Shown: one piece after another, positions 1,152 to 59,780 of the stretch
How positions within the stretch are numbered: position 1 is the first letter of the stretch
Layout: the number at the start of each line of letters is the position of its first letter
From: Betaproteobacteria bacterium
Lineage (GTDB): Bacteria > Pseudomonadota > Gammaproteobacteria > Burkholderiales > SG8-41
Assembly: GCA_016192825.1 (NCBI GenBank)
Contig: JACPTK010000074.1
Coordinates: 62,001 to 126,000 of the forward strand
Length of the DNA stretch: 64,000 nucleotides
Direction: 5' to 3'
Position numbers and translations under genes: made by a program
The notes under the pieces: model-generated
The model's input: only the letters and a program-made list of their open reading frames with translations
Told to the model about the DNA's origin: nothing
Database searches by the model: none

Positions 1152-7307
<6,156 letters not shown>

Positions 7308-57792: not shown

Positions 57793-58833
<1,041 letters not shown>

Positions 58834-58922
58834 TCACTGAAAGGGGAACTATCGCGCATTATAGTCGTCTTATTTGGTAGACGATGTTGAGTCGTCTCCC
58901 GCTTCTCCTCCCTGAGCGGGTT

Positions 58923-58946
58923 GCCTTAATCCTAGTTAAGGCTTTT
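58923..58946 (+). terminator. Intrinsic terminator 1 of the candidate sRNA
   Basis: GCCTTAA-TCCTAG-TTAAGGC followed by TTTT. The stem is a perfect 7 bp and is shortly followed by a stronger terminator. Confidence 0.65.
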
Positions 58947-58947
58947 G

Positions 58948-58983
58948 CCCCCGGTTTTACTCCCCTTTAACCGGGGGTTTTTT
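58948..58983 (+). terminator. Intrinsic terminator 2 of the candidate sRNA
   Basis: CCCCCGGTT (58948-58956) and AACCGGGGG (58969-58977) make a perfect 9-bp stem followed by six T. It is too far from any upstream plus-strand gene to be that gene's terminator, which argues for a transcript starting in this gap. Confidence 0.9.
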
Positions 58984-59144
58984 GTGTACGTTGATGGCCG
59001 CCGGGTCCCCGTGAGCACACCCTGACGCCGCGCAACGGAGCAGCGAAAATCGTCTAGGTTGTTGTTATCGCGCCTGAAACTGGCGCGTGCGGGAGGGCTT
59101 CTGTACAATACGCGTTCCGCGTAAGCGCCAACCCAGGAGCCCGA

Positions 59145-59780
59145 ATGAACGCCCGCTGGCCCGTCATGCTGCTTGTCGGCGTGTTGTTTTCCCCGGCCGC
59201 CGCGCGCCAGGGTCTCGCTGCGGCGGATCCTTCGAAAGCGCAGGCCGTTGTGACGCAAGTCTGTGCCGCCTGTCACGCCGCCGACGGCAATAGCACCCAG
59301 GCCGCCAATCCCGTGCTGGCCGGGCAGCATGCCGATTACACGTTCAAGCAACTCATGAACTTCAAGCCGCAGGGCGGCAAGCCGGCCGAACGGCCGAGCG
59401 CGGTGATGGCGGGCATGGTGGCGAACCTTTCGGCCGACGACATGCGCAATCTGGCCGCTTACTTCGAGATCCAGAAGCGAAAGCCGCGCGCCGCGCGTGA
59501 TCCGGAGCTGGTGAAGCTCGGCCGGGCGATCTACCGTGGGGGTGTTCTGACCAAGAACGTGGCGGCCTGTGCCGCCTGCCACGGTCCGAACGGTGCCGGC
59601 ATGCCGGCGCAGTTCCCGCATCTCGCGGGCCAGTTTGCCGATTACACCGCGGCCCAGCTGAAAGCGTTCCGCTCCGGCGAGCGCGCCAACGACCTCAATC
59701 GCACGATGCGCGCGGTGGCCGAAAAGCTCTCCGACAAGGAGATCGCGGCGGTCGCGGAATATATTTCCGGCCTGCGCTGA
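59145..59780 (+). CDS. Dihaem cytochrome c4
   Basis: This periplasmic electron carrier has two c-type haem sites, both CAACH (Cys40-His44 and Cys142-His146). It is built as two similar cytochrome c domains, each with a LAGQ motif downstream of the haem (VLAGQHADYTFKQL, HLAGQFADYTAAQL) and a distal Met region. The signal peptide ends at about LAA (residue 25-27). The length, 211 residues, fits the c4 family, which donates electrons to terminal oxidases. The start has AGGAG 8 bases upstream. It is converged on by hemL across a hairpin. Confidence 0.95.
   Translation: MNARWPVMLLVGVLFSPAAARQGLAAADPSKAQAVVTQVCAACHAADGNSTQAANPVLAGQHADYTFKQLMNFKPQGGKPAERPSAVMAGMVANLSADDMRNLAAYFEIQKRKPRAARDPELVKLGRAIYRGGVLTKNVAACAACHGPNGAGMPAQFPHLAGQFADYTAAQLKAFRSGERANDLNRTMRAVAEKLSDKEIAAVAEYISGLR

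Follow-up and report, generated by a model that had tools for sequence, protein, structure and literature searches.

Introduction

The closest described relatives of the element reported here belong to the anti-hemB RNA family (Rfam RF02837). ncS04, the family member of B. cenocepacia J2315, measures 105 nt; its start has been mapped and its 3' end confirmed by RACE (PMC5688073, Table 1), and a Burkholderia anti-hemB member has been co-purified with Hfq (PMC4603805, Table 4; PMC5688073). Regarding its regulation, ncS04 displayed no significant change in any of the seven conditions tabulated, low iron among them (PMC5688073, Table 2), and the Rfam hits of that study conveyed no function according to its authors (PMC5688073). 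A review lists Bc7 as one of 24 Hfq-co-purified sRNAs and gives hemB as its predicted target (PMC6321483); from the Rfam description 'Burkholderia RNA 7', we infer that Bc7 belongs to the anti-hemB family.

Three other sRNAs are of interest for comparison. ErsA sits in the polA-engB gap of Pseudomonas (PMC8575079) and is described as strictly dependent on sigma-22 (PMC7565897), acting on amrZ without Hfq (PMC5819304) and on anr with Hfq (PMC8575079). sX13, located downstream of polA, is reported as an Hfq-independent RNA restricted to Xanthomonadaceae, with three C-rich loops that repress mRNAs carrying G-rich motifs near their start sites (PMC3771888). Finally, Spot 42 occupies the gap between polA and yihA (engB) in E. 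coli.

An anti-hemB RNA between hemB and a cytochrome c4 gene

In the window, i.e., the whole 64-kb stretch of DNA analysed here, a full Rfam scan returned RF02837 as its sole match above cut-off. This match (58895..58985, + strand) reaches 75 bits over positions 1-81 of the 81-position model, for a gathering cut-off of 49.5, and is the only copy above cut-off in its own genome, in which the next match scores 18.3 bits. Its place, upstream of and divergent from hemB (57793..58803, - strand), supports membership of the family as its score does. On the other side, a cytochrome c4 gene (59145..59780, + strand) follows on the same strand and, as a first-pass annotation made from the letters alone had stated, no plus-strand gene ends in the gap. 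The predicted sRNA is about 106 nt long (58878..58983, + strand), its start being deduced from the promoter and its end from the U tract, and the two models built here (R1 and R2, see below) match 58877-58985 over their full length. Judged by its sequence, the element is an sRNA of an already known Rfam family.

The same annotation had read this gap as likely encoding an Hfq-type sRNA and had proposed an Rfam/Infernal search together with a look for covariation in relatives. The search gave RF02837, and the match, fold, stems, loop and terminator all lie where the sRNA had been placed. Its assignment as Hfq-type is likewise supported by membership of RF02837, the Hfq co-purification reported for the Burkholderia member, covarying stems and the presence of an hfq gene in the same genome (105.3 bits).

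Compared with ncS04 and Bc7, the element shares the full-length match over the gathering score, the place upstream of hemB, the C-rich loop, the terminator and a similar length. It differs by a sigma-E type promoter, present in the window and in most of the order loci examined and absent from the two Burkholderia loci examined, by a 5' hairpin lying ahead of the Rfam model, and by the missing engB downstream. Indeed, engB is absent between the sRNA and c4 in the window, unlike in many relatives, where it would stand at the position corresponding to 58985-59145. Moreover, its own 96%-complete genome contains no engB (YihA/YsxC) match above the TIGR03598 cut-off, and nine further genomes in which c4 closely follows the sRNA likewise lack a match over this cut-off (G111, G174, G234, G228, G164, G011, G246, G133 and G082). 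This absence reflects either repeated loss of the GTPase or divergence beyond the TIGR03598 model. Of note, a genome of the same family (G319) does have engB (TIGR03598, 223 bits).

With c4 starting 160 nt downstream on the same strand, the element might be read as a leader or attenuator of this gene and not as a free sRNA. In relatives, however, an opposite-strand engB stands between the sRNA and c4 (engB being within 1 kb in 25/30 order loci), and the terminator is conserved, which makes such a leader scarcely credible.

Distribution and gene neighbourhood

At E <= 0.001, RF02837 matched 49 of 60 genomes of the order, a set that appears to represent betaproteobacteria from its named hemB matches, and 44 of the 60 were above cut-off. 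In the class, 124 of 274 genomes matched at this E-value and only 14 of the 274 passed the cut-off, showing how few such loci Rfam retains. As three of 14 control genomes also gave matches at E <= 0.001 (none above cut-off), weak matches in the class called for other tests. Of the 44 order genomes above cut-off, the 30 that scored highest were examined at their loci. For the class, 109 loci besides the window were examined among the matches listed (29 brought by the search and 80 fetched), further copies on the same contig and single matches of at most 29.5 bits being mostly outside this examination. One of them, L009, comes from a genome of the same order; it is kept out of the 108 class synteny loci and of the 29 order loci and counted as the thirtieth order locus. 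It scores 65.7 bits, has a promoter of 7/12 and carries none of the neighbours discussed below.

The R1 model was built from the 29 order loci and extended to the predicted start, and R2 was built from 106 R1 matches, R1 having been applied to 94 loci, drawn from the class set and the window. Among 80 named hemB loci, R1 matched 52, of which 51 lie within about 310 nt upstream of hemB and one (L132) at 1467 nt from it. No R1 match was obtained in the other 28 named loci, including those of Xanthomonas, Lysobacteraceae, Methylobacter, Crenothrix and Leucothrix as well as betaproteobacterial ones such as those of Polynucleobacter, Methylophilus and Comamonas.

Within the order, the arrangement is hemB(-), sRNA(+), engB(-), c4(+); hemB, engB (both at up to 1 kb) and c4 (at up to 1.5 kb) each accompany the sRNA in 25/30 loci. 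For the 108 class loci outside the order, the same distances (polA being taken, like hemB and engB, within 1 kb) gave a different picture: hemB was near none of them, while engB was near 64, polA near 58 and c4 near 51. At least one of engB, polA and c4 adjoins 86 of these 108 matches, as opposed to none of the seven weak own-genome matches used as a negative control; among the 22 matches devoid of all three, 13 have a promoter of at least 10/12. These counts point to sRNA-engB-c4 as the conserved unit, with polA or hemB on its left. The absence of hemB from the 1-kb surroundings of every class match outside the order suggests that its presence next to the sRNA is lineage-specific.

This distribution bears on the function that the family name suggests, i.e., a cis-antisense RNA regulating hemB, whose 5' part would overlap a long hemB 5' leader. 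The proximity of hemB in 25 of the 30 order-level loci and the prediction of hemB as a target of Burkholderia Bc7 (PMC6321483) are in line with such a role. However, the 108 matches away from hemB have a similar structure, loop and promoter, and the predicted RNA, whose start lies 75 nt upstream from the hemB start codon, points away from this gene. Cis-antisense control of hemB is therefore rejected as the main role, the form of the family being kept where hemB is not nearby, and we regard it as highly unlikely. The iron or respiration targets that the first-pass annotation had guessed from the adjoining genes found no support either, given the same absence of hemB beside the class matches and the lack of a significant ncS04 change tabulated for low iron (PMC5688073, Table 2).

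Several loci depart from the common arrangement. In L049, L055, L150, L156, L169, L178, L202 and L220, the match is inverted relative to engB yet beside it, and the first five of these have a sigma-E type promoter of 10 or 11/12 in the inverted orientation. Tandem sRNA copies beside polA were observed in L163 (four, 2550-3304) and L167 (five, 2561-3302; weakest E 0.008), and two tandem copies each in L013, L016, L026, L149 and L168. In one class genome, a c-di-GMP-I riboswitch is found near the sRNA locus (L020, 2037-2121).

A sigma-E type promoter

Upstream of the predicted RNA, the window contains a -35 element, GGAACTA (58845..58851, + strand), followed after 15 nt by a -10 element, GTCTTA (58867..58872, + strand). 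Together, they form a sigma-E (RpoE/ECF) type promoter of 11/12, when scored against GGAACTT, a gap of 14-17 nt and GTC(A/T/C)NA with a threshold of at least 10/12, and the arrangement GGAACTA-N15-GTCTTA puts the start near 58878, for an RNA of about 106 nt. We take GGAACTT-N15/16-GTCNNA to be the RpoE/AlgU promoter class. RpoE is encoded in the same genome (330.8 bits, over cut-off), and upstream of the rpoE gene itself the best sigma-E-like site scores only 9/12 and is not significant.

Sites of at least 10/12 occur in 29 of the 30 order loci and in 85 of the 108 class-search loci (a set which, for this count, includes L009 and drops L198, whose upstream stretch is incomplete), as compared with 20/2149 control windows and 61/2740 shuffled sequences. 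The upstream region was not part of the model that selected these loci. Among the 114 loci with a promoter, the gap between the two elements is 15 nt in 92, 16 nt in 21 and 14 nt in one, and the 67 loci picked solely by an upstream GTCNNA have a GGAACTT-like element at the expected spacing. The promoter also accompanies matches that Rfam leaves out: of the 96 below-cut-off class loci examined, 76 have a promoter of at least 10 and 76 lie beside engB, polA or c4, and an Rfam scan of 20 class loci (32-49 bits) and four loci matched by the ErsA model assigned none of them, most having both the locus and the promoter.

The first-pass annotation had placed a -10 box, here taken as being of sigma-70 type, in this region. 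The TATAGT hexamer is present (58860-58865), but it lies in the spacer of the conserved sigma-E type promoter (58845-58872) and is conserved only in the window and in L057, a locus of the same family, out of the 29 order loci (the window included, L009 not counted). A housekeeping sRNA transcribed from this sigma-70 promoter, free of stress regulation, would be consistent with TATAGT and a weak -35 element together reaching 9/12, with the sigma-70-like appearance, by eye, of several Burkholderiaceae-type relatives, and with ncS04 not being induced in the tabulated conditions (PMC5688073). Yet sigma-70-like sites of at least 9/12 occur in only 2/29 order loci, equal to the shuffled rate of 6.6%, and a sigma-E type promoter overlaps the position in 29/30 order loci. 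We thus rejected the sigma-70 promoter and regard a housekeeping sRNA as distinctly unlikely.

The sigma-E type promoter is unevenly distributed among the named loci, 24 of 52 scoring at least 10/12. Scores of 7-9 were obtained for those of Burkholderia, Cupriavidus, Variovorax and Polaromonas, in which sigma-70-like sequences are recognizable by eye, and a score of 10 for those of Paraburkholderia. It is possible that the promoter has changed within one sRNA family in the Burkholderia, Cupriavidus and Variovorax loci, and the differing promoter of Burkholderia may explain why a link with envelope stress went unseen there. Seven Burkholderia, Cupriavidus and Variovorax loci (L084, L086, L108, L116, L122, L134 and L140) have a sigma-E type score of 8 or 9. 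In the open-licence literature searched, we found neither the sigma-E type promoter of anti-hemB nor its 5' hairpin.

Four covarying stems with conserved C-rich loops

The strand from 58872 to 58985 folds at -46.3 kcal/mol, as compared with -28.2 (sd 3.25) for shuffled sequences (z -5.57, 0/200). For the 29 order sequences, RNAalifold gave four stems with double changes in 21/32 pairs. In a wider set of 105 distinct sequences, 92.3% of 3126 cells are paired, double changes occur in 32/32 pairs and the covariation score is 0.653, versus 0.184 for shuffled and at most 0.092 for slid alignments; this wider alignment (A2) was made to the model, so its pair counts lean towards structure, and it excludes the low-scoring loci L211-L226. 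The covariation in relatives on which the first-pass annotation had wished its reading to be judged is hence present in all four stems. Its 'three compact stems' do exist, their actual number being four.

Stem-loop 0, the 5' hairpin (58879..58897, + strand), is mostly outside the Rfam model and has seven pairs, all with double changes and with 89.7% of cells paired over the 105 distinct sequences. Stem-loop 1 (CCCGCUUCUCCUCCCUGAGCGGG, 58898..58920, + strand) is nearly invariant among the 29 order sequences, its stem covarying in the wider set. Its loop, CUCCUCCC at 58905-58912 (as DNA, CTCCTCCC), is the exposed C-rich, Shine-Dalgarno-complementary loop already recognized in the first reading, and CUCCC is found in 96/106 of these loops, for 24.8 expected from shuffled loops. 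Stem-loop 2 (58923..58942, + strand), with eight pairs, all showing double changes, is followed by a U run (58943-58946), and its loop contains CCCC in 82/106 sequences (33.3 expected). Stem-loop 3, the intrinsic terminator (58947..58983, + strand), combines a stem (58947-58978), the loop ACUCCCC and a U-rich tail whose U run ends at 58983; it is conserved among the 29 order sequences, and CCCC is found in 55/106 of its loops (23.1 expected). Of the two tandem terminators initially proposed, 58947-58983 is a good one and the only one listed within the gap, whereas the third stem and its UUUUG form an internal hairpin, also present in relatives. The conservation of loops on changing stems suggests that the loops are the active parts, in agreement with what has been reported for sX13 (PMC3771888).

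A conserved small ORF was considered and rejected. The window has a 28-codon frame from 58884, and an early ATG is found in only 13/29 order loci, with differing frames. The peptide RLPLLLPER is common to four of these 13 loci (the window, L045, L046 and L060) and not to the rest, its sharing arising because the near-invariant stem-loop 1 DNA encodes it in that frame.

Possible kinship with ErsA and sX13, and comparison with Spot 42

The polA-engB position of ErsA is not that of the sRNA in the window, which stands between hemB and c4 with engB missing, and is that of many class loci. With the Rfam ErsA model (RF01719), which was made from other sequences, matches were obtained in 10 of the same 274 class genomes, a single one of them exceeding the cut-off. 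Among the nine others, six overlap anti-hemB matches (G171, G267, G064, G144, G156 and G055), and the four ErsA-model loci inspected (G034, G144, G089 and G257) are all located in the polA-engB gap. The window itself scores 14.5 bits with this model, below the gathering cut-off of 50. ErsA resembles the window sRNA in its sigma-E type promoter and, on visual inspection, in a 5' hairpin and a C-rich terminator loop, and it adjoins polA, its polA-engB place being that of the wider family. It differs in having no R1 match and, again on visual inspection, in carrying a U-rich region in place of stem-loop 1 and its CUCCUCCC.

In the R2 placement search, covering 11 genomes, the best match in the Pseudomonas-like G162 was ErsA, at 25.5 bits (next 25.4), a score weak alone; this ErsA is preceded by the site TGAACTT-N16-GTCATA. 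In Burkholderia, the match at the expected place ranked first. In Xanthomonas, an R2 match beside polA (33.9 bits) came second to a match of 38.1 bits without these neighbours, and a sigma-E-like site of 10/12 accompanies the polA-side match (L293). From its position and loops, though not from the published sequence, L293 would be sX13, an RNA that has in common with the window sRNA three C-rich loops and, with the wider family, the place downstream of polA, and that differs in adjoining polA instead of hemB and in its reported Hfq independence and restriction to Xanthomonadaceae (PMC3771888). In one of two Lysobacteraceae, the polA-adjacent match took the first rank (34.6), and in the other the second (27.8); in Leucothrix, the top match (26.5) lay beside engB with a promoter of only 7/12. 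No inspected R2 match had these neighbours in Methylobacter, Crenothrix, the NORP60 gammaproteobacterium, Comamonas and Polynucleobacter. The direct R2 scores, weak alone, agree with position and promoter.

Spot 42 (spf, RF00021) shares only the polA-yihA(engB) position. Its model matched none of the 274 class genomes and gave no match in the window's own genome at E <= 0.001, and its R2 score of 20.8 bits is within the range of other terminator-like places; Spot 42 was hence rejected as a sequence relative.

The resemblance among anti-hemB, ErsA and sX13 might also stem from convergence, C-rich loops before a terminator arising often and not necessarily by common descent. Pointing this way, weak matches were obtained to ar14 (24 bits) and LhrC (21 bits), R1 matched neither ErsA nor Spot 42 at E <= 1, and R2 gave 22-38 bits at terminator-like places without these neighbours in the 11 genomes. 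Speaking against convergence, these sRNAs occupy one intergenic place and have promoters of one class at comparable distances, and intermediate sequences are matched by both the ErsA and the anti-hemB models; we deem it unlikely. The sRNA locus sRNA-engB-c4 would rather include ErsA and, less surely, sX13, for which kinship is probable. No link among anti-hemB, ErsA and sX13, nor a locus common to them, was found in the open-licence literature searched.

Proposed mechanism

We consider it likely that the window encodes an anti-hemB sRNA which would be made from a sigma-E type promoter under envelope stress, would direct its loops against Shine-Dalgarno sequences with the involvement of Hfq, and would occupy a locus common to ErsA and probably sX13. 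Transcription would most likely start at the sigma-E type promoter upon envelope stress, the conservation of the promoter being established and its use by RpoE being presumed. The resulting RNA of about 106 nt is predicted to fold into the four stems that covariation supports, with CUCCUCCC exposed in stem-loop 1 and CUCCCC in the loop of the terminator. Both loops may base-pair with the purine-rich Shine-Dalgarno regions of numerous mRNAs and keep ribosomes from binding, as judged from the conservation of the loops and from the way in which the C-rich loops of sX13 are reported to act (PMC3771888). Hfq would bind the U-rich 3' part, in line with the co-purification reported in Burkholderia (PMC4603805; PMC5688073). 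Since sX13 is Hfq-independent and the need of ErsA for Hfq depends on the target, the need for Hfq may vary. The gene would form part of a single sRNA-engB-c4 locus, flanked on the left by hemB in the window's order and by polA in 58 of the 108 class loci outside it.

Regarding possible targets, the pattern GGGAGGAG-N2-11-ATG has 29 candidate sites in the window's own genome versus nine for the reversed pattern, the corresponding figures in four relatives being 8/2, 18/8, 6/0 and 19/15. The hfq ribosome binding site of this genome contains no such run, unlike in the sX13-hfq case.

Conclusion

Beyond a member of a known family, the analysis yields three results, i.e., a conserved sigma-E type promoter, a 5' hairpin mostly outside the Rfam model and a locus common to ErsA and probably sX13. 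More broadly, we lean slightly towards the view that a single ancient sRNA gene underlies anti-hemB, ErsA and sX13, and possibly Spot 42 as its diverged remnant. This gene would have been under sigma-E control at the base of Gammaproteobacteria (taken in the wide sense) and would have stayed beside engB-c4, with hemB replacing polA on its left in the betaproteobacterial lineage. Its sigma-E control would have been lost in Burkholderiaceae, the group in which anti-hemB has been studied, and its product would act under envelope stress as a general brake on the translation of mRNAs whose ribosome binding sites are G-rich. The finding bears on a question raised in the sX13 study, namely whether the polA loci of other bacteria encode sRNAs acting alike (PMC3771888), and RF02837, a family without known function, thereby gains a testable regulator, sigma-E, and a testable mechanism.
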